Shown one piece after another: positions 1-11,771 of a DNA stretch of 27,740 nt; the stretch's first letter is position 1; every line of letters starts with the position of its first letter. A program made the position numbers and the translations under genes. The stretch covers positions 1 through 27,740 of the IMG/VR virus record IMGVR_UViG_3300021960_007377; one strand, 5' to 3'. Origin of the DNA: a virus. The notes below the pieces were generated by a model that was not told the origin of the DNA, did not search any database, and worked only from the letters and a program-made list of their open reading frames with translations.

Positions 1-59
1 TATCTGAGTTGGAAAACGTTGTAAAAAATCATATATTAATAAATTGGAGTAAGATATGA
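1..59 (+). CDS. C-terminal end of an upstream gene (partial)
   Basis: In the frame starting at base 3 the sequence is open from the left edge to a TGA at 57-59. That stop overlaps the ATG of the next gene as ATGA, the same junction used repeatedly downstream. About 18 residues are visible, too few to assign a family. The overlap style is the only real support; the 56 bases could also be a non-coding leader, and a GGAG at 46-49 would then be a rare Shine-Dalgarno-like site for the next gene. Confidence 0.5.
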   Translation, partial: SELENVVKNHILINWSKI

Positions 60-979
60 TAGGAGTACATGCATTTTGGTCTAAACCTACTTTAACAGGA
101 ACTAATGGTCACCACTTAGTCGGTAGAGAGAACTTTGATATGCATGATTTTGAAATAGTACATTTCTTACTATCAGCACTTTATTATAAAAAACTTAACG
201 GACCTATACACTTATATACAGATGATACGTTTTTTGAGTACTTAAGACATAAAGGACTGTTGCATGTGTGGGATAAAATAGATACCTCACTGTATAAAGA
301 GTTTAAAAAATTAGGTCTTAATTCAAAATCTAACTGGACAGGGTTTAAAACATGGCTATTACAAAAAATACCAGCCCCTTTTCTACTTTTAGATCATGAC
401 AACATGGTTTATACAAAAATTCCAAAGGAATTATTTAAAACTCCAGTAAGATTTGCTCATTTAGAGATTCCTAACCCACATTGGTACCCTGCTAAAGAGG
501 ATATACAAGTTTTTAACTTTAAATTTGATGATAGTTGGGATTGGACGCTAAATGTACCCAATACATGTATGTTGTATTTCAAAGACGATGGGTTTAAAGA
601 TTTATACTCAAAAATATCTATACAATTTCAGCTAGGTAACACAACTGACGATAAACATTTAGGTGAAGTACAGTATTTGTTTGCCGATCAAAGATTACTT
701 TTGATGTTGTTACACCAACACAAGGTTGAATACGGTACATTTTGTAATCACATCTTTGGTTCTGTTAGACCTGATGATGACCCTGTATGGGTGAAGTATT
801 CTGATGATGAAACTATCAGACAGGTTGGTTTTGATCACACCTGGGCACATAAACATAACTTACTTAACTCTGAATACCACTATACTGAGTATATGGATAG
901 ACATAAGGACATAATTTTCAACACATTTCCAGAACATAAGGAAATTTTTAGACAATTTTATAATGATACACAATTTTAA
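56..979 (+). CDS. Putative GT-A-type glycosyltransferase
   Basis: A 307-residue protein with no signal peptide or membrane segment, so probably cytoplasmic. The N-terminus (VHAFWSKP, residues 4-11) and a hydrophobic strand ending in LLLDHDN (about 110-116) resemble the nucleotide-binding half of GT-A glycosyltransferases, where Asp-x-Asp (here D113-H-D115) binds the metal and sugar nucleotide. The overall look recalls uncharacterised DUF6734-like proteins, but I cannot confirm that. It overlaps the upstream frame by 4 bases and the next glycosyltransferase gene by 17, placing it first in the visible part of the glycan cassette. Donor and acceptor sugars cannot be read from the sequence. The class is likely; the exact family is uncertain. 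Confidence 0.6.
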   Translation: MIGVHAFWSKPTLTGTNGHHLVGRENFDMHDFEIVHFLLSALYYKKLNGPIHLYTDDTFFEYLRHKGLLHVWDKIDTSLYKEFKKLGLNSKSNWTGFKTWLLQKIPAPFLLLDHDNMVYTKIPKELFKTPVRFAHLEIPNPHWYPAKEDIQVFNFKFDDSWDWTLNVPNTCMLYFKDDGFKDLYSKISIQFQLGNTTDDKHLGEVQYLFADQRLLLMLLHQHKVEYGTFCNHIFGSVRPDDDPVWVKYSDDETIRQVGFDHTWAHKHNLLNSEYHYTEYMDRHKDIIFNTFPEHKEIFRQFYNDTQF

Positions 980-1841
980 TAAACATATTCATCAAATTTG
1001 GTTTCAAGAAGGTGATCTTACTGAACAATGGAAAGATCTAGGCAGTCAAGATTATTTTGAAATGCAAAACACGTTTATTGAATTTTGTCAACGCAAAGGC
1101 TGGGAGTATACACTATGGAGAGAAAATAGTATATTAGATTTTATTTCAACTTACTTTCCAGAGTATTTAGATGAATTTAACAGTTTAGATTCTATTATAA
1201 AAAAAGTCGATTGTGCAAGATTAATGATTTTGTACATCTACGGAGGAATGTACGTCGATATAGATTCTTACCTTAAGAGAGATTTGGATGATTTTTTAAA
1301 TTTAGATCATATAGTAAGAGATGAATACGCATACACGTTGTGGCATATTAATCCAAAAATGCCTATAACACATACATACGACTTAATAGCAGGTCAAGAA
1401 AAAACTATATGTGAATACCACTATAATAAATTTGGAATACAAATACCTAAAGTAAATAATGCTGTTATATTTTGCAGGCCTGGATTAGACTTATTTTTAG
1501 AGGTAATTGAAAAAGGATTTAGAAGAAAGCATCATTCTATTATGAATTCTTTCGGTGTTCAGACATTCAGTAACACTGTTTACAATCACATGCGTCAGTT
1601 TATTGATAAAACATTAGAAACCAACCAATATAATTTACCTTCTAAGATACTCACACTACCTTTTATTTACTTTTATGAAATGGATGTTGATCAGGAGTGG
1701 TACATTAAAGCTGGAGGTTTAGAAAAGTATATTAACGACCCACGACAGTTTATCGTACACAAATTTGATGGTAACTGGGATGGTGAACAATATGAAGAGT
1801 TTTTGAATAAACTTACTAACAGAAATATTATTAAATACTAA
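963..1841 (+). CDS. DXD-motif glycosyltransferase (OCH1/capsular type)
   Basis: A 292-residue protein with the hallmark arrangement of the glycosyltransferase family containing a sugar-binding DXD region (Gly_transf_sug, related to yeast OCH1 and capsular transferases). It starts with IHQIWFQ (about 9-15), which matches the typical IHQIW opening. It has D83-CARL followed by LYIYGGMYVDID (90-101), in which D99-I-D101 would bind the metal and nucleotide-sugar. Such enzymes add hexoses to oligosaccharides or polysaccharides. The start overlaps the previous gene by 17 bases, and the stop overlaps the next start by one base (TAATG), suggesting coupled translation. No export signal is visible. The sugar specificity is unknown. 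Confidence 0.82.
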   Translation: MIHNFNKHIHQIWFQEGDLTEQWKDLGSQDYFEMQNTFIEFCQRKGWEYTLWRENSILDFISTYFPEYLDEFNSLDSIIKKVDCARLMILYIYGGMYVDIDSYLKRDLDDFLNLDHIVRDEYAYTLWHINPKMPITHTYDLIAGQEKTICEYHYNKFGIQIPKVNNAVIFCRPGLDLFLEVIEKGFRRKHHSIMNSFGVQTFSNTVYNHMRQFIDKTLETNQYNLPSKILTLPFIYFYEMDVDQEWYIKAGGLEKYINDPRQFIVHKFDGNWDGEQYEEFLNKLTNRNIIKY

Positions 1842-2680
1842 TGTTAAATTTAGTTACAGTAGTAGGGTATAACACAATAACAACCTCTCAAATGTTAAAA
1901 CATTATGAGAATATGGTTGATAAAATGTATGTTTGTGTGTTGACTGATAGAGAACATATGTTTGTACTTGATGAACTTGAAGAATTAAATATACCTGTAC
2001 ATAAAGTAGTAGTTCAAGATAAATTTAACTGGTATGGAGTAACTCCTCTTTACAATGAAATAAAAGCAACAAAACCAAATGATTGGTGGATAGTGGCTGA
2101 TGATGATGAGTTGCAAGTTTATCCATATAATATTGAAGATATTATTAGAGACTGTGAAAAAGGAGGATACGACTTTGTAACAGGTGGCTTTTTAGATAGA
2201 ATAGGTAAGAATGGTACTTTACCTAAAGTTACTAAAGATACAGACTTACATAAAGAGTTTCCTTTAGCAGGTTTCTTTAGAAACCCAATGTCTGGGGCAT
2301 GTCCTAACAAAGTTACTTTAATGAGAGGTTATCAAAAAGTAACCGATGGACAACATTATGCTGCTTTTGACGATGGTACTAACAGCTGGGGAAGAAAACA
2401 CCCAAAAAGAATGCCTGTAGAGCAAGTATTTACCCAAGTACACCACTTTAAATGGGATCAATCAGTATTAGAAAGACTATTATGGACTGCGAGTATGAAA
2501 GATTATTATAGATCTACAGCAGAATTTCAGAAAATGCATGATGCAATTATTGGTTCAGGTAACAAAATCGACATACATAATCTTAAGTATTTAGTTGAAA
2601 ATATGAAAGAATTTTCTTATATTAATTATAATGACTACCCTCATTGGGGTACGTTAACTGATAAAATAGTGTCAATATGA
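1841..2680 (+). CDS. Family 2-like glycosyltransferase
   Basis: A 279-residue protein. After the first beta strands comes WWIVADDDE (82-90), an acidic metal-binding motif of the family 2 type. A second conserved-looking block, VHHFKWD (200-206), resembles the HFKW signature of GT92/DUF23 and Glyco_tranf_2_4-type enzymes. The N-terminal region (LVTVVGYN) looks like the first strand of a GT-A fold. It is joined to its neighbours by TAATG upstream and ATGA downstream. There is no membrane segment, so it likely acts in the host cytoplasm on a nucleotide sugar. The acceptor is unknown. Confidence 0.72.
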   Translation: MLNLVTVVGYNTITTSQMLKHYENMVDKMYVCVLTDREHMFVLDELEELNIPVHKVVVQDKFNWYGVTPLYNEIKATKPNDWWIVADDDELQVYPYNIEDIIRDCEKGGYDFVTGGFLDRIGKNGTLPKVTKDTDLHKEFPLAGFFRNPMSGACPNKVTLMRGYQKVTDGQHYAAFDDGTNSWGRKHPKRMPVEQVFTQVHHFKWDQSVLERLLWTASMKDYYRSTAEFQKMHDAIIGSGNKIDIHNLKYLVENMKEFSYINYNDYPHWGTLTDKIVSI

Positions 2681-2868
2681 GTGATAACATTGAAAAACAG
2701 ATACTAGAAGAACGTAAAGTCAAAGCTCTAGAAAAAATAGGTAACTGTTTAGATACCCTTACCCTTTGGTTTGAAGAAATAGATAAAGAAGAGTGGGGAG
2801 AAAGAATTGAATGGTACCTAGATCTGTATAGAAAAAAATACCTTAGTGACGTAGAAGATGACGCATAA
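2677..2868 (+). CDS. Small acidic helical protein, function unknown
   Basis: A 63-residue ORF between two glycosyltransferase genes, overlapping the upstream one by ATGA and the downstream one by 11 bases. It is rich in Glu, Lys and Leu and looks largely helical, with two Trp-containing patches (LTLWFEE and EWGERIEWYL). I do not recognise a family. Its fit into the overlapping gene string supports it being real. It could be an accessory or partner protein for an adjacent transferase, but that is a guess. Confidence 0.6.
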   Translation: MSDNIEKQILEERKVKALEKIGNCLDTLTLWFEEIDKEEWGERIEWYLDLYRKKYLSDVEDDA

Positions 2869-4258
2869 GTTAGGTATTATAATTCCCTACAGAAATAGAC
2901 CTAATCAGTTATCCGAGTTTAGAAAAAGTATTTCTTCCTACCTAAGTACACCTCACGAGGTTATAGTTGTAGATCAACAAGATGATTTAGATTTTAATAG
3001 AGGTAAGCTTTTAAATATAGGTTTTCAAAAAGCGGACGAATTAGGTTGTGACTATATTGCGTTACACGATATAGATATGCTACCTATTGATGCTGATTAT
3101 ACATACAGTGACAAACCTGTACACCTAATTACTGAGTTAGATTTACCAGAAGGAGTAAATAGACAGTTATTTGATAGTTACTTTGGCGGAGTTACTCTGT
3201 TTCCTTCTTACATCTATAAACAGATAAATGGTTATTCAAATGAGTATTACGGTTGGGGGTTTGAAGATGATGATTTATTTTTAAGGTGTATTGAAAACGG
3301 TATTAATTTAGATAGTAAAGTCGTTCCTCAATTTACCAGAAATGCTGTTGGACTGAAGTTTAACGGTAAAGATAGTTTTGCCGCTGTACCAAATGTATTA
3401 AAATCATTCAGAGATTATACAGTATTTACTTCATTTAGATTTGATGAAATTAATAGACTTAAGGAAAACATAACAGATAATAATTCTATTTTTAGTATAC
3501 CTGGTTTTGATACTACGTTACTTATTAATTCATTCTTCGATTTATCCTTTCAGTTTTGGAAAAAAGATCTTAGTTCTATTTCTATTAATAACAAAATATT
3601 ACCTCAAGGGCATTTTAATGTTGCAGTAAAATTTAGTAATAAATCAAATCCTGCTTGTATTTCGGTATACGTTAATGGGAAAAAAATAGGTGATAATACA
3701 TATGATGAACTACTACCAATACACAAAAGCAAGTTAATCTACCTAGGAGTTGGAGACCCTAACAGAGATGAGAAACAAAATTGGTTTAATGGTAGTATTG
3801 ACAGATTCGCTATCTTTAATAGATGTTTAACAGATGATGAAATATATAGATTAACATCTAAAGCACCTCATACACTATTTGACTTTACTTTTTCAGATGA
3901 TTTAGTTAGTTATTATGAAATGTTAAACATTAAATCAAACACATTAATAGATTTAGCAGGAGAAAACGATGGGTATAGTTCTAACTGTAAACAAGTATAT
4001 ATGCCAAAGTCTAAAGATATTAATGTATTTTTACCTCACAGACGAGAAGGTAAATTTAAGGTTTTACCACACAAAGAAAATGGGTACAAAGATGGGTACT
4101 GGGTCAACTGGGCAAGTAGACAAAACCAGTTAAAATACTTAAAAAAGTTTTACAAAAAAAGATCTAAATTTAAAAATGATGGACTATCAACGTTAAAGTA
4201 TAAAATTAGTCAAAATTTTAGCAGTGGTAATTTTCATCATTTAGAAGTACATTTATGA
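2858..4258 (+). CDS. Beta-1,4-galactosyltransferase-like enzyme with inserted LamG-like domain
   Basis: A 466-residue protein. Residues 5-145 carry the beta-1,4-galactosyltransferase (GT7) signature: IIPYRNR (8-14), FNRGKLLNIGF (46-56), HDIDMLP (70-76) with the metal-binding DID, FGGV (109-112), and NGYSNEYYGWGFEDDD (124-139). The C-terminal 80 residues also look like GT7: H405 in VLPHKEN and NDGLSTLKY (440-448), which resembles the SDGLNSLTY block of animal enzymes. Between these, roughly residues 165-380, lies a beta-rich LamG/concanavalin-like region with FNGKDSFAAVP, VYVNGKKIG, LIYLGVGD and a closing DLAGENDG. The lectin-like domain thus appears nested inside the catalytic fold. A tandem paralogue follows by ATGA overlap. 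The domain boundaries are inferred by eye. Confidence 0.82.
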   Translation: MTHKLGIIIPYRNRPNQLSEFRKSISSYLSTPHEVIVVDQQDDLDFNRGKLLNIGFQKADELGCDYIALHDIDMLPIDADYTYSDKPVHLITELDLPEGVNRQLFDSYFGGVTLFPSYIYKQINGYSNEYYGWGFEDDDLFLRCIENGINLDSKVVPQFTRNAVGLKFNGKDSFAAVPNVLKSFRDYTVFTSFRFDEINRLKENITDNNSIFSIPGFDTTLLINSFFDLSFQFWKKDLSSISINNKILPQGHFNVAVKFSNKSNPACISVYVNGKKIGDNTYDELLPIHKSKLIYLGVGDPNRDEKQNWFNGSIDRFAIFNRCLTDDEIYRLTSKAPHTLFDFTFSDDLVSYYEMLNIKSNTLIDLAGENDGYSSNCKQVYMPKSKDINVFLPHRREGKFKVLPHKENGYKDGYWVNWASRQNQLKYLKKFYKKRSKFKNDGLSTLKYKISQNFSSGNFHHLEVHL

Positions 4259-5652
4259 AATTAGGAGTTTGCGTACCATATAGGAATAGAGAAGCTCATT
4301 TACATGAGTTTATACCAAGGGTTGGAAAACACCTTAAAGCTCAAGGTATAGATTTTCAGATGTACTTCTGTCATCAAGTTGATGATAAACTGTTTAATAG
4401 AGGTGCTACTAAAAATATAGCAGCCAAGCATGCTTTTGAAGAAGGGTGTGATTACATTGTCTGGCATGACATTGATATGATACCAGAACCTGATGCTGAT
4501 TATTCTTACCCAAAAGAAAACCCTATCCACCTAGCAACTAGAATATCTCAAATGGACTATAAACTAAAGTATCATGAATATTTTGGTGGAGCAGTTTTAT
4601 TTACAAAAGAACAAGTAGAAGCTACTAATGGTTATTCAAATGACTATTGGGACTGGGGGATGGAAGATGATGATCTATTCTGGAGATGTCACTTAGAGGG
4701 TATGACTAACGATACGTATCTAGACGTACCATTTAAACAAAAACGGATATTACAGTTTGATGGTAATAACTCATGGGCTAAGTTACCAAAAAGTAGAGAA
4801 CTAAGAACATTTAGTAACGATAGCCATACAGTTTCTATTTTAGTTAAATGTTTTCAACAACCGGATAAACAGTCAGAGTTTTTGATTGGGGCTAAAGATA
4901 AAAAGTATGTAGAATACCCAATATTAAGAATACCTGGATTTGATTACGGTATTTCATTTAATAATTCTAGAGCAATATCATTTCAATACTGGAATATATT
5001 CAACCAACATAACTACATGTGGTTAAAAAGATATGAAGGTCAATGGAGTTGGATTACAGTGGTGTTAGATGCAGATAAAAATTTATCTCATTTTTACCTA
5101 AACGGTACTGAAGTTGATAGTAAAGCAGGACACGGCAGTGAATCTCCTTGGAAGTTCAATGGCAAATTAAAAAAATATTCAGGTAAAGATGTTTATTTAG
5201 GAATAACTCCTTCTTTAGGTGAAAACGATCCTGCTAAATACTTTAAAGGTGAGATAGCTGACTTAAAAATTTGGGATAGAGCATTATCAGAACAAGAAGT
5301 AAAAGACTTACCTTTAGAGTACCCTTTAGACAGTATTATTTATAAGTATAATATTGATGAATTGATAAAACATCAATGTAATGAGGTTGTAGAAGAAGTT
5401 AAGGTTCCTAATTCTATTATTCCACATAGACGTACCGCTAGATTTACTTGTCTTCCTCATGAAGATGAAGGTTTAGTAGACGGTAAATGGACTAAAGGGG
5501 AAACTACTGCTCGAAATGAACGTAGATATGTACTTGAAATGCAAAAAGGTACATGGGATTATAAATCAGACGGTATAAAGCAAGTAAAATATGAGCTTGT
5601 AGGAGAGGAAATACTTACACCGTGGGCAAAAATGATTAACATAAGGTTGTGA
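4255..5652 (+). CDS. Second beta-1,4-galactosyltransferase-like enzyme with inserted LamG-like domain
   Basis: A 465-residue paralogue of the preceding gene with the same plan. It has VPYRNR (7-12), LFNRGATKN (46-54), HDIDMIP (71-77), YFGGAVLF (109-116) and NGYSNDYWDWGMEDDD (125-140). An insert of about 166-375 begins with FDGNNSWAKLP and includes FYLNGTEVD, VYLGITP, FKGEIADLKIWDRALSEQE, typical of LamG-like sandwiches. A C-terminal GT7-like remnant holds IPHRRTARFTCLPHE and KSDGIKQVKYEL (near 437-448). The corresponding C-terminal blocks begin at the same residue number (about 385) in both paralogues, so they probably arose by tandem duplication of an already nested gene and then diverged. 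It ends in GTGA, overlapping the radical SAM start. The donor is likely UDP-Gal or UDP-GalNAc from the family, not from direct evidence. Confidence 0.82.
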   Translation: MKLGVCVPYRNREAHLHEFIPRVGKHLKAQGIDFQMYFCHQVDDKLFNRGATKNIAAKHAFEEGCDYIVWHDIDMIPEPDADYSYPKENPIHLATRISQMDYKLKYHEYFGGAVLFTKEQVEATNGYSNDYWDWGMEDDDLFWRCHLEGMTNDTYLDVPFKQKRILQFDGNNSWAKLPKSRELRTFSNDSHTVSILVKCFQQPDKQSEFLIGAKDKKYVEYPILRIPGFDYGISFNNSRAISFQYWNIFNQHNYMWLKRYEGQWSWITVVLDADKNLSHFYLNGTEVDSKAGHGSESPWKFNGKLKKYSGKDVYLGITPSLGENDPAKYFKGEIADLKIWDRALSEQEVKDLPLEYPLDSIIYKYNIDELIKHQCNEVVEEVKVPNSIIPHRRTARFTCLPHEDEGLVDGKWTKGETTARNERRYVLEMQKGTWDYKSDGIKQVKYELVGEEILTPWAKMINIRL

Positions 5653-7019
5653 ATTCACAGGAAGTAAAAAGTAAATTAGATAAAGTAGGCTGTGGGTTTT
5701 GTTTAGCAAAATGGACACAAGTTACAATGCATTTAGGTTTGGGAATGACTCACTCCTGTCACCACCCATCTCCTCACAAAATACCTATTAATGAAGTAAA
5801 ACGTAACCCATCGGCACTACATAATACATTATTTAAGAAAAGAAAAAGAAAAGAAATGTTAGAAGGCAAAAGACCTTCTGAATGTAGTTATTGTTGGAAT
5901 ATAGAAGATAACTCTAATGCATTTTCTGATAGAGTATTTAAATCTAGCGAACCTTGGTCTTTAGATCAGTTCGATAAAATTAAATCAAGTGATTGGCGAG
6001 ATAATATTAACCCTAAGTATGTAGAAGTTTCATTTTCAAATACATGCAACTTTAAATGTGCTTATTGTGGCCCTCAATATTCTTCCAAATGGGTTGAAGA
6101 AATCGAAAAGTACGGAGGGTATAATACAACACAGAAGTATAACAACTTAGATGATTTACGAGCTAAAAATGAATTACCATTTAAACAATCTGAACACAAC
6201 CCTTATGTAGAAGCTTTTTGGGAATGGTGGCCTGACTTATATAAAGATTTACACACTTTTAGAATCACCGGAGGAGAACCTTTACTATCTAAAGATACTT
6301 TTAAGGTATTAGAGTATATTCAAGAACATTGGGAGGAAAACCCTAACCTATCTTTAGCTATAAACACTAACTTAGGAGTACCAGATGCATTAATTGATAA
6401 ATTAATTACAATTGCAAAAGATTTATGTGAGAATAATAAAGTTAAAGAACTTATTATATTTACATCAGTAGAAGCTACAAAAGAACAAGCTGAATACACT
6501 AGGTTTGGATTAAATTACGATAAGTTTTGGCAGAATGTAGATAATATATTAACACAATTACCAAAAGTAACAGTTAATATTATGGCAGCATTTAATGCTC
6601 TATCTGTTTTTACGTACAGTGACCTTATAGATAAAGTGTACGAAATGAAAAAGAAACACCACAATGAACAAAGGTATTGGATTTCTGCTCTTCAATTAGA
6701 CACCTCTTATATTAGATGGCCACAACATCTTTCTATACTAGTATTAGAGACACAACATAAAGAACTAATACTTGAAGCAGCTAAAAAAGCTTTTTACTAT
6801 GGAGCTAAAGGTTTTTCAAAAGAATTTTACGGATATTCTGGTATCGAAATACAGAAAATAAAAAGACTATATGACTATTCAATATCTGAAAAAAACTTTG
6901 ATGTAGATAAAAACAGAAAAGACTTTGGTAAATTTATTACCGATTACGATAAACGTAGGAACACAAATTTTAACAAAACTTTCCCACAACTAAAAGAGTT
7001 TTATGCTGAGTATAAATAA
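5649..7019 (+). CDS. Radical SAM protein with N-terminal twitch/SPASM-like cysteine region
   Basis: A 456-residue protein starting at GTG within a GTGA overlap. The radical SAM core is clear: CNFKCAYC (C133, C137, C140; CxxxCxxC binds the 4Fe-4S cluster and SAM), then ITGGEPLL (206-213), the SAM-binding GGEP motif. Ahead of the core are five more cysteines (C15, C18, C37, C79, C82), arranged as GCGFC, SCHH and ECSYCW. This resembles the auxiliary cluster region of twitch/SPASM proteins, but it lies N-terminal rather than C-terminal to the core. Proteins annotated as twitch-domain radical SAM occur in marine T4-like phages. The substrate is unknown; the surrounding glycan genes make a sugar or cell-surface substrate plausible. 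Confidence 0.85.
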   Translation: MNSQEVKSKLDKVGCGFCLAKWTQVTMHLGLGMTHSCHHPSPHKIPINEVKRNPSALHNTLFKKRKRKEMLEGKRPSECSYCWNIEDNSNAFSDRVFKSSEPWSLDQFDKIKSSDWRDNINPKYVEVSFSNTCNFKCAYCGPQYSSKWVEEIEKYGGYNTTQKYNNLDDLRAKNELPFKQSEHNPYVEAFWEWWPDLYKDLHTFRITGGEPLLSKDTFKVLEYIQEHWEENPNLSLAINTNLGVPDALIDKLITIAKDLCENNKVKELIIFTSVEATKEQAEYTRFGLNYDKFWQNVDNILTQLPKVTVNIMAAFNALSVFTYSDLIDKVYEMKKKHHNEQRYWISALQLDTSYIRWPQHLSILVLETQHKELILEAAKKAFYYGAKGFSKEFYGYSGIEIQKIKRLYDYSISEKNFDVDKNRKDFGKFITDYDKRRNTNFNKTFPQLKEFYAEYK

Positions 7020-7581
7020 ACATGATGTGTGGGCATTTTGGCCAAGTAGTATTTGCGAGAATTTTTCTGATAAAATTGCAAATAAGTACATATCTGGTGA
7101 ATATGATTTTGAAATCTATACTAAATTCTCAGTTGAAGAAGATGTAGATCAAAGATTAACTATTATTAGTATGCTACCCACATATGTTTCTTATGATTTA
7201 TATAACCAGTGGGTTAACGGTATAGTTGTTAATACCGATGATGGTGTAACCGGTACCCAACTAGAAGGTTTAGTTAAACAAGGTAAAATACATGAATTGG
7301 TTTGGAAAAATAAAAAAAATTCATATTTTGAAGTTATACTTGATTCTGAAATAATACATATTACTAAAAACTTTCCTATGAATAAGGAAATGCAAATACT
7401 GTTTGGAGCTGGTAATATACCTTCTCATGAAGGTAACCACAATTACTGTGCTTTAAATTTATATGAGTTTAAAATAACTGTTAATAACGAATTACTAAGT
7501 TACCACACATTCGATAAATTTATTGAAAACAAATCCGTTGACATAACTGGTAATTGTAATTTTATACATAAGTTAACCTAA
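7003..7581 (+). CDS. Possible stand-alone LamG-like lectin domain protein
   Basis: A 192-residue protein overlapping the radical SAM gene by 17 bases. I see no catalytic motif. The pattern is alternating beta strands: YDFEIYTKFSVEE (about 34-46), YFEVILDSEIIHI, MQILFGAG, LNLYEFKITVN and a closing VDITGNCNFIHKL. The order of a strand, then a glycine-rich turn (FGAGNIPSHEG), then a final DxTGN block resembles the LamG-like inserts in the two galactosyltransferase-like neighbours, where the closing block is DLAGENDG. I therefore suggest a carbohydrate-binding jelly roll, but the identity is weak and a different beta sandwich is possible. It joins the next gene by TAATG. Confidence 0.45.
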   Translation: MLSINKHDVWAFWPSSICENFSDKIANKYISGEYDFEIYTKFSVEEDVDQRLTIISMLPTYVSYDLYNQWVNGIVVNTDDGVTGTQLEGLVKQGKIHELVWKNKKNSYFEVILDSEIIHITKNFPMNKEMQILFGAGNIPSHEGNHNYCALNLYEFKITVNNELLSYHTFDKFIENKSVDITGNCNFIHKLT

Positions 7582-9020
7582 TGAGAAGAAAAATAAATTT
7601 AGCATTTACTGAGATACTGATGCACTATGATGAGCATCCACATTCATTTGCACCATTATTTTGGGAATCTCCGGAAAAAAATAAATTGTTTTACCCGCAT
7701 AGTTGTTTTAATCAATCTAAAGAAGAATTAGAAGAAAGCTATGATATTAAATTCCCTGTAAATCAAAGGCAATTGTACGATTTAGACCCTGGGTTAGCTA
7801 ACAGTCTAAATACCCAAACTGCACAATTTGTACAACATAGGACACACACCGAACGTAACACCGTTGAATATTTTCTAGATAAAAAGGAAAAAATGATACT
7901 ACCGGTTATAGTTGATTTGCCAGGTTTTTTCAAAACAGACGTGGACTCTTTTAACATTCCTAGTCATATTTTAAAACATATTCACTGTGGTAATATCACA
8001 CTACTGTTCTCTATGCACTTTGAAGGTCATTTTCATGAGTATAAGTACATAGCATGGTTAAATGATTTTGCAAAAAAATTTAAATTAGATAGAACTAATT
8101 TTTATTTTGCAAACAGTAACTTAATATCAGATGAATTATATGATACTTATGAGAAATATCACTGCACAGAGAATTTATTTTCCATTTTTACAGATTCTTT
8201 TTTTGAACACCAACCTTGGTTCTTTCCTAACACCAACCACACTAAGACTAAAAAGGAAGATAGGGTATTTCATTACACAAAATTTCATGAATTTTTGAGA
8301 CACAATGAAAGTGAGTCAAAAAAATCTGTATTTTTATCATTGAACAGGAGGTTGGATATACACAGGTTGTTAACAATAGCTCAATTTAAGTCTAATCCAC
8401 TTTTACATGACCATAAAATTAGTTTAGGTAATGTTTATAACGCACCTATTCAAGAACAGTTTATTTCTTTTATTGATAATGTATTAGATTTATCCTACTT
8501 TGATAACCCTCGAAAAATAAGACAAGCAGTAGATGAGGTCATAAAACAAATCCCAATAGTATTAGACGAGGATACAAGTAAAATTAACTTTGCTAACAAT
8601 CTAAATTTAGATTTACAAAGAAATACGTTTGTAAGTGTGGTTACTGAAAGCCTATACACAGAAAGATCTGTGTTCTTTTCTGAAAAAATATACAAACCTA
8701 TTTACTGTGCTCAACCGTTTATTATAGTCGGTAGTCCGTACTCCTTGAAAAAGCTGAGAGAACAGGGTTACCAAACTTTTGGTAAGTGGTGGGATGAATC
8801 ATATGATGAAGAACCAAATTTTATCAAAAGACTCACTAAACTTGAAAAAGTTTATGAATATATTGGTTCATTAAGCTATAGTCAACTTTATGATATGACA
8901 GTTGAAATGGAAGATGTGTTTATTAATAACTTTAACACACTTATGTCTTTGGATAGATTAAGTAGATCGGTGAATTTTTTAGAAGATTTATGTGATGGTG
9001 ACTTTAAAGAAATAGATTAA
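7581..9020 (+). CDS. Putative glycosyltransferase (GT-B-like C-terminal motif)
   Basis: A 479-residue cytoplasmic-looking protein. Two blocks stand out. FLSLNRRLDIHR (251-262) resembles a motif seen in uncharacterised phage and bacterial glycan-cluster proteins. The second, SEKIYKPIYCAQPFIIVG (367-384) followed by GYQTF (396-400) and WWDESYDE (403-410), resembles the nucleotide-sugar binding end of fucosyltransferase/exostosin-type GT-B enzymes, in which an E-K-x-x-K-P string precedes the glycine-rich loop. The N-terminal 240 residues are not recognisable. Position in an unbroken chain of glycan genes supports a transferase role. The specific family and sugar are not established. Confidence 0.55.
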   Translation: MRRKINLAFTEILMHYDEHPHSFAPLFWESPEKNKLFYPHSCFNQSKEELEESYDIKFPVNQRQLYDLDPGLANSLNTQTAQFVQHRTHTERNTVEYFLDKKEKMILPVIVDLPGFFKTDVDSFNIPSHILKHIHCGNITLLFSMHFEGHFHEYKYIAWLNDFAKKFKLDRTNFYFANSNLISDELYDTYEKYHCTENLFSIFTDSFFEHQPWFFPNTNHTKTKKEDRVFHYTKFHEFLRHNESESKKSVFLSLNRRLDIHRLLTIAQFKSNPLLHDHKISLGNVYNAPIQEQFISFIDNVLDLSYFDNPRKIRQAVDEVIKQIPIVLDEDTSKINFANNLNLDLQRNTFVSVVTESLYTERSVFFSEKIYKPIYCAQPFIIVGSPYSLKKLREQGYQTFGKWWDESYDEEPNFIKRLTKLEKVYEYIGSLSYSQLYDMTVEMEDVFINNFNTLMSLDRLSRSVNFLEDLCDGDFKEID

Positions 9021-9683
9021 ATGAAACTTATAACAGCTGGGTGTAGTTACACCTATGGACATGGATTGAAAGATTGTTTTATTCCTCCAAACGGGTACGG
9101 ACCTGAACCTAGTCAATATGCATGGCCAGCAGTTTTGGCTAAAAAATTAAATATAGAATGTGTTAATCTTGCACTTCCTGGAGGAAGTAACTCTTATATT
9201 GTTCAACAGGTAACTAACTACGAACCCACAATAGACGACGTGGTAGTTATACTATGGTCTTTCTTTACCAGAGAAACATTTTTAGATGAAAATAAATTAA
9301 CACAACACGGGGAATGGGAAGAAGATTATATGAAACATAAATTTGAGTTTTCAAATGTTACTGATAATTTTTTAAAACAATTTGTTCAAATTTTTCTATT
9401 AACTAAACATTTGGAAAACATAGGTTGTAAATTTTTATACTCTTTTATGGATCATTATAAAAATATTGAGGTTTATGAAAAGTATAGAGAAGTGAAAAAT
9501 AAATTTTCTACATATATAGATAAACATGATTGTACGGACAATACATTTACTGCTACTCAATTAAGGCTACATGAAAATAAATACCTAGGTGACATAGCAT
9601 TAGACGGTAGTCATCCTGGCGAACTTTGGCATAAAGATTTTGCTGATTTAATTTTTAACGAGTTAGAACAAAAATACAAATGA
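9021..9683 (+). CDS. SGNH/GDSL-type hydrolase-like protein
   Basis: A 220-residue protein whose ATG directly follows the previous stop. It has the SGNH blocks: ITAGCSYTYGHG (4-15) with candidate nucleophile S9; NLALPGGSNSY (about 49-59) with the block II Gly and Asn; and DGSHPGELWH (195-204) giving D195 and H198 of the catalytic triad. Family members hydrolyse esters or move acyl groups, and in polysaccharide clusters often remove or add acetyl groups on sugars. No signal peptide is visible. It overlaps the next SGNH-like gene by ATGA. A glycan O-acyl esterase or transferase role is inferred from context. Confidence 0.72.
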   Translation: MKLITAGCSYTYGHGLKDCFIPPNGYGPEPSQYAWPAVLAKKLNIECVNLALPGGSNSYIVQQVTNYEPTIDDVVVILWSFFTRETFLDENKLTQHGEWEEDYMKHKFEFSNVTDNFLKQFVQIFLLTKHLENIGCKFLYSFMDHYKNIEVYEKYREVKNKFSTYIDKHDCTDNTFTATQLRLHENKYLGDIALDGSHPGELWHKDFADLIFNELEQKYK

Positions 9684-10585
9684 AAAAATTAGTAACTTTC
9701 GGTTGCAGTTTCACCGACTATCCACAATGGCCTACATGGTCCGATTGGATGGCTCACCACTATGGAGAAGACGATTATGAAAAACACGCAAGAGGTGGAG
9801 TAGGAGCACGTGCAGTGTTTAACCTTATAGTAAAGTACCTTAGGTCTAAAGATAATTTTGAAAATGAACATATTATTGTACAGTGGGGTAGTTGTGCTCG
9901 AGATGATAAGTTTCCAAAAAACGTTTCTGGATTAACAACAGACCAACTTAACTACGTACAATGTGGGAGTATTACCAACACTCACTGTTATACTCCAGAG
10001 TACATTAAAAATAATTTTTCATTTTTACAGAGTGTGTTTGAAACTGTTAACTACATATACACCGTAAAAAGTTTATTCAACAACTTAGGCATTCAGTACA
10101 CAATGACATTTATGCTTGACCCTAGAATTAGTTCTTTTTTAGGAGAACCTGGATTTAATTCATACAACCAAGATGTGTCGGTTGCTGAAATGAAACTTAT
10201 TCAACCTTACTTTGATGAATTAGATAAGTTAATAGATGATAAGTTTACAGATAAGTGTATTACAATGCACCAATTGGACAAAGTAGAAAATGTATTTTGT
10301 TTCAATGATAATGTAACTGGATTACCAACTAGAGAAGGTCACCCTAGCCCGTCACAACATTATGAATTTTTCAAGAAGTACATAACCCCACATTTTCCTG
10401 ATAAACAATTTACTGAAACACCAGAAATTGTAAATTTAGTACAACAGTGGCAAGACTACGCAGAAATTAAAAAGGGAGTACAAGATAAGGTGGAGTTAGA
10501 ACCGAAAGTATGGCCTTGTAAGAAGAGATACAGTGGTATGAATTTAACAGAGGTTGAATTTTTAAAATATAGTGTAGTAAACTAA
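9680..10585 (+). CDS. Second SGNH-like protein, triad Asp apparently replaced
   Basis: A 301-residue protein opening with KKLVTFGCSFTDYPQW, so S10 sits in a GCSFT block I like its neighbour. GGVGARAVFN resembles block II, and VQWGSCARDD occupies the block III region. The C-terminal block reads TREGHPSPSQHY with H221, but the position three residues before the His, normally Asp, is R218. The protein therefore keeps Ser and His and seems to lack the usual Asp; E219 could substitute, or the protein may be inactive. The C-terminal 65 residues extend past the fold. It is the last gene before a short promoter-like gap. Fold assignment is fairly good; activity is uncertain. Confidence 0.65.
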   Translation: MKKLVTFGCSFTDYPQWPTWSDWMAHHYGEDDYEKHARGGVGARAVFNLIVKYLRSKDNFENEHIIVQWGSCARDDKFPKNVSGLTTDQLNYVQCGSITNTHCYTPEYIKNNFSFLQSVFETVNYIYTVKSLFNNLGIQYTMTFMLDPRISSFLGEPGFNSYNQDVSVAEMKLIQPYFDELDKLIDDKFTDKCITMHQLDKVENVFCFNDNVTGLPTREGHPSPSQHYEFFKKYITPHFPDKQFTETPEIVNLVQQWQDYAEIKKGVQDKVELEPKVWPCKKRYSGMNLTEVEFLKYSVVN

Positions 10586-10604: not shown

Positions 10605-11771
10605 ATGAAAATAGGTTTTATAGGAGTTGGGAAGCTCGGTAAAGAATCTGCCGAAGTAATGGCAGAAAAACATGAAGTTATAGGTTACGACGTGACACAA
10701 GTGTCCCCGGAAAACTTTCAAATGGTATCCTCAATAGAGGAAGTATGTAAGGATAGAGAAATGATCTTTATTGCTGTACCAACACCTCATCACCCAGACT
10801 ACGATGGACGTTATCCTACGTCTCATCTACCAAATAAAGATTTTGATTATAGTATAGTTAACAACGTATTAGATGAAGTAAATAAATACGTTAGCAAAGA
10901 TCAATTAATAGTACTTATTTCTACTGTATTACCTGGAACTATTCGTAGAGAATTTATTCACAGAATACCCAATGGTAGATTTATTTACAACCCATACTTG
11001 ATTGCAATGGGTACAGTAAAATGGGATATGGTTAATCCTGAGATGGTCATTATAGGTACTGAAGATGGTTCAATGACAGGAGATGCTAAGATGCTTTTAG
11101 ACTTTTATAAGACTTTTATTACTGAAGGTACAAGATATGAAGTAGGAACTTGGGATGAAGCAGAAGCAATTAAAATATTCTATAATACATTTATATCTAC
11201 AAAAGTAGCTTTAGTTAACATGATTCAAGATGTAGCTGAAAAATCAGGTAACATGAATGTAGATGTGGTAACTGGAGCATTAGAAAGGTCTACCCAACGG
11301 ATATTAGGTAAAGCATACATGAAAGCAGGTATGGGTGATGGTGGAGGGTGTCATCCAAGAGATAATATTGCTTTACGTTATATGGCTGAAAAATTGAATT
11401 TAGGGTATGATTTATTTGATGCTATAATGAGAGCAAGAGAAATACAAGCAAAAAACATTGCAACAAGACTTGTTATAGAATCAGATAAGGCTAATCTACC
11501 TATTGTGATATTAGGTAAAGCATATAAACCTGATGTACATTACGAAGATGGATCTTCTTCAATATTAGTAGGTCATTACTGTGAATCATACGGTTCTGCT
11601 AAAAAGGTAACTTATGACCCAATAGAACCTATTAAAGCAGTTTACTTGTTAGGGCATTTAGGTAAACACCACGACTATGACTTTCCAGATGGTTCAGTAG
11701 TAGTTGATCCATGGAGAAGTTTTAGAACAGATAAAAATATTAAAACAATACATTACGGAAATACTCGTTAG
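10605..11771 (+). CDS. UDP-glucose/GDP-mannose dehydrogenase family protein
   Basis: A 388-residue NAD-dependent nucleotide-sugar dehydrogenase, oxidising the C6 hydroxyl of an NDP-hexose to a uronic acid in two steps. The N-terminal Rossmann motif is GVGKLG (7-12). FIAVPTP matches the family strand that follows. STVLPGT (about 106-112) matches the S-T-x-x-P-G-T block. EAEAIKIFYNT places the conserved Lys at 190. GDGGGCHPRDN places the catalytic Cys at 249. A C-terminal KAYKPD block and a final VVDPWR complete the family plan. At 388 residues it is slightly shorter than many bacterial UDP-glucose dehydrogenases. It would supply UDP-glucuronate or a similar sugar to the upstream transferases. 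The exact substrate is not shown. Confidence 0.88.
   Translation: MKIGFIGVGKLGKESAEVMAEKHEVIGYDVTQVSPENFQMVSSIEEVCKDREMIFIAVPTPHHPDYDGRYPTSHLPNKDFDYSIVNNVLDEVNKYVSKDQLIVLISTVLPGTIRREFIHRIPNGRFIYNPYLIAMGTVKWDMVNPEMVIIGTEDGSMTGDAKMLLDFYKTFITEGTRYEVGTWDEAEAIKIFYNTFISTKVALVNMIQDVAEKSGNMNVDVVTGALERSTQRILGKAYMKAGMGDGGGCHPRDNIALRYMAEKLNLGYDLFDAIMRAREIQAKNIATRLVIESDKANLPIVILGKAYKPDVHYEDGSSSILVGHYCESYGSAKKVTYDPIEPIKAVYLLGHLGKHHDYDFPDGSVVVDPWRSFRTDKNIKTIHYGNTR

Follow-up and report, generated by a model that had tools for sequence, protein, structure and literature searches.

We analysed positions 1–27,740 of the IMG/VR virus record IMGVR_UViG_3300021960_007377 (hereafter the window), a linear virus record of marine origin, and identified two tandem genes, P1 and P2, encoding glycosyltransferases of family GT7 with an unusual architecture. 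In the structure models of both proteins, the GT-A catalytic domain is split by a nested laminin G (LamG)/pentraxin-like domain, which is inserted in one hairpin immediately before the strand with a metal-ligand-type histidine at its end. P1 (2858–4258, + strand, 466 amino acids (aa)) and P2 (4255–5652, + strand, 465 aa) overlap by 4 bp and alike passed the curated Pfam cut-offs for Glyco_transf_7N (E = 4e-14 for P1 and 1.5e-16 for P2), Glyco_transf_7C (8e-15 and 2e-19) and Laminin_G_3 (8e-13 and 5e-15), in the order GT7N–GT7C–LamG. The initial annotation of the window had placed two tandem open reading frames (ORFs) of this composition at the same positions, and both are present with all three families. 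The motifs FNRG, HDID, FGGV and EDDD that it had listed for both proteins were also recovered, except that P2 reads FGGA instead of FGGV.

In P1, the N-terminal catalytic part comprises residues 1–158 (2858–3331, + strand; PYRNR, FNRG, HDID, YFGGV and WGFEDDD), the nested jelly roll residues 161–388 (3338–4021) and the C-terminal GT7 part residues 389–466 (4022–4255; metal-ligand-type H405 and DGLSTLKY). The corresponding parts of P2 are residues 1–157 (4255–4725, + strand), 161–386 (4735–5412) and 387–465 (5413–5649; H402 and DGIKQVKY). The N-terminal parts are supported by phmmer matches to B4GALT7 and B4GALT1 (E = 9e-28 to 2e-18 for P1, 1e-25 to 9e-24 for P2), the inserts by Laminin_G_3 and VIA-align, and the C-terminal parts by insert-free alignment to B4GALT1, complemented by VIA-align for P2.

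Nesting of the LamG domain in the GT7 fold

Residues 2–152 of P1 and P2 match B4GALT1 and B4GALT7 (phmmer, E = 1e-28 to 1e-18), and in a profile of P2 relatives the C-terminal DGL..L.Y block falls, in order but weakly, on the matching block of B4GALT1. An insert-deleted profile of ten sequences (seven of them nested cores, the other three uninterrupted bacterial GT7s that help to bridge) aligned to B4GALT1 without a break up to position 267 of the 273-residue chain (E = 4e-51). The VLPH/CLPH and DGLSTLKY/DGIKQVKY blocks, which had been described as resembling the usual end of GT7, are thus the true GT7 C-terminus. The empty-site form without LamG is found in uninterrupted bacterial GT7s from Parachlamydiaceae (L124), Planctomycetota (L127) and Chitinophagaceae (L142), in which GL.I runs straight into R.G.[FY]..L.H; these share 36–48% identity in the catalytic part and have the same C-terminal block.

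AlphaFold2 models, which were computed from a 59-row (P1) and a 56-row (P2) alignment, reached predicted local distance difference test (pLDDT) scores of 94.3 and 91.1 and predicted template modelling (pTM) scores of 0.88 and 0.86, respectively. The P1 model was superimposed on B4GALT1 by VIA-align with a Z of 26.5 and a root mean square deviation (rmsd) of 2.1 Å for 208 residues aligned over 1–466, and the P2 model with a Z of 27.9 and an rmsd of 1.9 Å for 213 residues aligned over 1–465. Foldseek alone aligned only about 155 GT7 columns because the insert breaks its alignment, whereas VIA-align linked both halves. The P1 insert (161–388) fits 4dqa (Z 21.7), the LamG domain of PAPP-A (Z ~21) and pentraxins (Z 17–20), and the P2 insert likewise fits the PAPP-A LamG domain (Z ~21) and pentraxins (Z 17–19). 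Both proteins were assigned to GT7 based on GT7N and GT7C profile scores above the cut-offs and a whole GT-A fold that includes the C-terminal part, and their inserts to the laminin G-like (concanavalin A-like/pentraxin) domains based on profile match and jelly-roll fold. The proposal that LamG is nested within the catalytic domain and not appended to it is thereby borne out, as the superposition with B4GALT1 spans the whole of both models and the insert-free core aligns continuously. The initial annotation had named two results that would speak against nesting, namely C-terminal ~80 residues packing away from the GT domain and a middle region that is not a jelly roll. Instead, the C-terminal ~78 residues complete the predicted GT7 fold, and the models of the middle region fit LamG/pentraxin folds with Z values of ~17–22.

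The inserts of 59 P1-type and 51 P2-type sequences were compared for site, length and conservation. They are located at the identical site in all of these sequences and in nested proteins on contigs of metagenome-assembled genomes (MAGs), and this recurrence across relatives argues that the nesting is not due to chance. The insert spans from residue ~158–161 to ~388 and has a median length of 233–234 aa (range 199–255 aa among relatives); the LamG-like middle region that had been put at roughly 200 residues is therefore present, though somewhat longer (~230 residues).

Catalytic residues and predicted activity

Landmark residues were scored over 59 P1-type and 56 P2/P3-type rows, with P3 denoting a further nested paralogue in relatives. 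Little or no variation was seen in PYRxR, FNRG, HDxDM, YFGG, ED, the late histidine and the DG of the last block. This applies to R14, FNR, HDxD, YFGG, E136/D137 and H405 of P1 and to R10/R12, HDIDMIP, YFGG, D138/D140 and H402 of P2. H405 is kept in 58 and G442 in all 59 of the P1-type rows, while H402 and G440 are kept in 56 of 56 P2/P3 rows, four of which have tyrosine in place of the arginine of FNRG. The DxD, the WGxEDD and the metal-ligand histidine that define GT7 are thus conserved, with HDxD, E136/D137 (P1) and D138 (P2) being invariant.

Judged by these residues, P1 and P2 are two different, probably active GT7 glycosyltransferases, which are likely to transfer a hexose from a uridine diphosphate (UDP)-sugar. 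The tyrosine before FGG is kept, and we take it to be equivalent to Tyr289 of B4GALT1, the residue that favours galactose (Gal) over N-acetylgalactosamine (GalNAc); we therefore propose a hexose of the Gal or glucose (Glc) type. In B4GALT1, a methionine also contacts the metal. This residue, three positions before the ligand histidine, is replaced by valine, cysteine or another residue in the phage proteins, and the metal preference of P1 and P2 may therefore differ.

Paralogues, bacterial homologues and origin of the nesting

Searches of IMG/VR recovered 34 loci for P1 and at least 197 for P2, of which 80 non-redundant P2 loci were kept for neighbourhood counts; none of the INPHARED phage records contains P2. 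Third or fourth nested GT7 paralogues (P3) are encoded upstream of P1 in L103, L105, L107, L092, L094 and L033, and most of them form their own clade. A second nested GT7 was also considered in a Lipothrixvirus and rejected, as the matches to P1 residues 112–357 fall in a hypothetical protein of ~1340 aa, whose LamG domain accounts best for them. The PHROG family phrog_17320 matched only residues 248–362 of P1.

Homology between the inserts of P1 and P2 was established by hhalign (probability 99.8%, E = 5e-30). In a tree of the catalytic cores, P1, P2 and P3 fall into different clades, between which the branching of the plain GT7s is not resolved, and a single nested clade that was forced on this tree was not rejected (approximately unbiased test, p-AU 0.27), so that neither a single nor a multiple insertion is demonstrated. 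The initial annotation had postulated duplication after insertion. The identical site and the homologous inserts fit this order of events, and we favour one insertion followed by duplication on these grounds, but it is unproven because the core tree is compatible with a single nested clade without demanding one.

Six of 24 loci from genome collections are nested. Three of the candidate bacterial cases (L119, L120 and L123) were read as contigs of phages that had been sorted into bacterial bins, because their flanks show the same phage module, and a fourth (L131), which resembles a P3 copy, probably has the same explanation. Two MAGs of one phylum encode a solitary nested LamG-GT7 beside a GT2 gene (L121:4941–6431 and L122:409–1884) amid bacterial neighbours (SNF2, LRR-kinase, GT2, ABC exporter, HlyD), and their catalytic cores group with P2 (support 100/99). 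Nesting is therefore not confined to phages. The ABC exporter and the HlyD-like gene are encoded at L121, and judging from these genes the locus possibly serves a secreted glycosylated product. Nested GT7s are rare in the two bacterial phyla surveyed: among 167 genomes of the L121 phylum there was none beyond L121 and L122, and among 296 genomes of the L129 phylum an uninterrupted GT7 was present in one genome and a nested one in none.

A conserved module next to virion genes

P1 precedes P2 in 75 of the 80 non-redundant loci, and its end overlaps P2 by 4 bp or 1 bp in 66 of them. The pair is part of a module in the order GT2-like glycosyltransferase, small ORF, P1, P2, twitch radical SAM protein and stand-alone LamG protein. 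The GT2-like gene (1841–2680, + strand) has a homologue in 71 of 80 loci and only a weak match to Pfam Glyco_tranf_2_4 below the cut-off (E = 0.0026). The small ORF (2677–2868, + strand, 63 aa) overlaps the start of P1 and has no Pfam or PHROG match. Small ORFs of 60–80 aa with a consensus of about ERKVKALEKIA.SLDALT.WFEEIDK.EW..RIQFYL.EF are located immediately 5' of P1 in 61 of 73 non-redundant loci and also in L143–L147. The twitch-domain radical SAM protein (5649–7019, + strand) was assigned to NCBIfam NF033640 (E = 1e-98, 331 bits against a cut-off of 170) and is represented by homologues in 76 of 80 loci, with one to three copies per module, often two or three. The stand-alone LamG-like protein (7003–7581, + strand, 192 aa; E = 1e-10 to the P1 insert) has homologues beside radical SAM genes in 32 of 80 loci, and a second stand-alone LamG family takes this place in others. 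Both types are homologous to the P1 insert (hhalign probability 97.0% for the 192-aa protein and 99.3%). The small ORF, the radical SAM protein, the stand-alone LamG protein and the adjacency to virion genes had gone unnoticed in the initial annotation.

Further genes of the cassette on the + strand of the window encode a DUF6734 protein, a probable glycosyltransferase (56–979; PF20508, E = 2e-5, just below the cut-off; homologues in 30 of 80 loci), a GT32-type glycosyltransferase (963–1841; Gly_transf_sug with DXD, PF04488, E = 1.5e-10) and a UDP-glucose/guanosine diphosphate (GDP)-mannose dehydrogenase for nucleotide-sugar supply (10605–11771; phrog_9148, E = 2e-101, and PF00984). A 479-aa-type protein is a neighbour in 21 of 80 loci, a Methyltransf_24 protein is a recurring neighbour in relatives, and the L119 module includes a deoxythymidine diphosphate (dTDP)-sugar epimerase.

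The window derives from a T4-like myovirus, as it encodes tail sheath, tail tube, baseplate hub, gp53-like, PolA and UvsX-like proteins. Among isolates, Flavobacterium phages of the genus Immutovirus come closest (tail sheath 63%, PolA 63%). The module of the window ends with the UDP-glucose dehydrogenase gene, directly followed by the tail sheath gene, and in L143, L146 and L147 the module is located 3' of tail-fibre genes, which were recognised by S74 chaperone domains or tail-fibre PHROG matches. Flavobacterium phage vB_FspM_immuto has the same fibre-to-sheath gene order as the window, but P1, P2, the radical SAM gene and the cassette as a whole are absent from it; its tail-fibre and sheath genes are separated by a short stretch of small genes, one of which encodes a lysozyme. 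The cassette therefore behaves as an accessory island at this junction. Adjacent LamG proteins of virion type, one of them with a glycine-rich region, are encoded beside a collagen-repeat tail fibre with S74 chaperone at L143:4097–8773, and LamG domains are thus likely to occur also on the virion side of such phages.

The sequence TATTTATA on the + strand looks like a late-promoter element, being the reverse of the T4 late motif TATAAATA. In the window, seven of nine occurrences (10586, 11790, 13643, 14220, 15232, 18098 and 24481) are situated 9–94 bp upstream of gene starts, and in Immutovirus (L154) all 11 occurrences are 12–76 bp upstream of gene starts. The genes that it precedes include terminase, sheath and tube. 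The forward T4 motif TATAAATA was rejected as a promoter on the + strand, as it is not enriched at gene starts while the reverse form is. Between genes at positions 1–10585 of the window there is no TATTTATA, and the cassette may therefore be read from an upstream promoter.

Proposed function and alternative explanations

We propose, with a probability of roughly 0.45, that P1 and P2 are part of a phage glycan cassette and transfer hexose to a glycan on a virion protein, probably the tail fibre, while the nested LamG domain holds the chain or the acceptor. The two proteins would be translated together, probably with the overlapping small ORF, as the core of a cassette that is placed between tail-fibre and tail-sheath genes and consists of glycosyltransferases, a methyltransferase (in relatives), the twitch radical SAM protein, the stand-alone LamG protein and nucleotide-sugar enzymes. 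Each would add a hexose of the Gal or Glc type from a UDP-sugar to the growing glycan, and the nested LamG domain would keep the growing chain or the acceptor protein beside the active site, with P1 and P2 then acting sequentially on one acceptor. We see about even odds that the target is a glycan on a virion protein, probably the fibre, and separately about even odds that the acceptor or growing glycan is held close to the active site by the nested LamG domain. Mean pairwise identity of the P2 insert is 52%, with 65 positions conserved in at least 90% of sequences (N-terminal catalytic part, 81% identity), and its residues H252, Y254, W256, K258 and Y260 alternate along one predicted strand and might constitute a putative binding face. 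The P1 insert weighs against such a role, as its mean pairwise identity is 30.6% with only 10 positions conserved in at least 90% of sequences (N-terminal catalytic part, 56.6%); its ligand may therefore vary, or it may be a scaffold. It also counts against acceptor reading that LamG folds frequently have protein or lipid ligands or serve a structural role. As an alternative, the insert may function in assembly without contacting sugar, either by pairing P1 with P2 or by binding another partner, such as the product of the small ORF, the stand-alone LamG protein or a protein of the virion. LamG/pentraxin folds are common protein-binding modules, conservation and translational coupling link P1, P2 and the small ORF, and a homologous stand-alone LamG protein is encoded next to them. 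We nevertheless regard this function as unlikely, given that the solitary nested GT7s of the two bacterial MAGs have no P1/P2 partner and pairing is therefore not essential to the architecture.

A further reading, in place of virion glycosylation, is remodelling of the host surface (O-antigen, capsule or exopolysaccharide), for example as a superinfection block, in which LamG would recognise host polysaccharide and P1 and P2 would extend or cap it. Phage glycosyltransferases often alter host surface glycans (summarised in PMC12619734), and several glycosyltransferases and nucleotide-sugar enzymes are present in the cassette. This reading appears doubtful to us, as the cassette is located among virion structural genes and not among early genes, and family searches of the window module, made without transmembrane prediction, gave no membrane anchor or export gene. 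Phages that use glycosyltransferases to hypermodify DNA do exist (cited in PMC12619734), but transfer to nucleic acid or modified bases is very improbable here: known GT7 enzymes act in the synthesis of glycans and glycoproteins, and no base-modification gene was recognised next to P1 and P2, whose neighbours encode fibre and sheath proteins, nucleotide-sugar enzymes, methyltransferase and radical SAM proteins. Virion glycosylation as preferred here could also take a more elaborate, rather improbable form, in which P1 and P2, coupled to the stand-alone LamG protein and the product of the small ORF, would alternately read and extend one phage-encoded tail-fibre glycan and the twitch radical SAM protein would modify the same glycan or protein. 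If true, such a self-reading unit would be a new virion-decoration system.

Relation to known glycosyltransferases

B4GALT1 and B4GALT7 (CAZy family GT7) share with P1 and P2 the complete GT-A fold, the HDxD, WGxEDD and histidine landmarks and the C-terminal DGL..L.Y block. Their solved structures have no domain at the hairpin in question, where the phage proteins carry ~230 extra LamG residues. A built-in lectin domain tunes acceptor choice in the GT27 polypeptide GalNAc-transferases and in MGAT4A/GnT-IVa (PMC4432651, PMC9296478). These enzymes belong to other GT families, and their lectins are ricin-type or CBM-like and separate from the catalytic domain, in contrast to the nested LamG domain of P1 and P2. 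GT7 residues flank LamG on both sides, unlike the GT27-like arrangement with a lectin C-terminal to the catalytic domain, and the lectin-equipped enzymes are at most functional analogues. The glycosylphosphatidylinositol (GPI)-GalNAc transferase PGAP4 has a GT-A fold that is likewise split, by two transmembrane helices (residues 262–308; PMC5785973), but its insert is not a lectin, and it is a different enzyme from a different kingdom. Moraphages, large aquatic Bacteroidota phages known from metagenomes, are reported to have several core glycosyltransferases of unknown target, and the account of them describes no nested LamG-GT7 (PMC12619734). The literature searched, which did not extend to subscription papers and preprints, yielded no description of a LamG domain nested in GT7. 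P1 and P2 thus apparently represent a previously undescribed variant of a well-known enzyme family, which we judge to be real because the design recurs in nearly 200 related viral sequences.

Lectin-bearing glycosyltransferases normally have the lectin appended, whereas here a lectin-like fold is spliced into an intact catalytic domain. Many aquatic phage contigs have retained this nested architecture in two or three paralogues, and it also occurs in two bacterial MAGs. It marks a conserved phage module of fibre genes, glycosyltransferases and twitch radical SAM proteins, and offers a testable case of an acceptor-reading module built into a GT-A enzyme.

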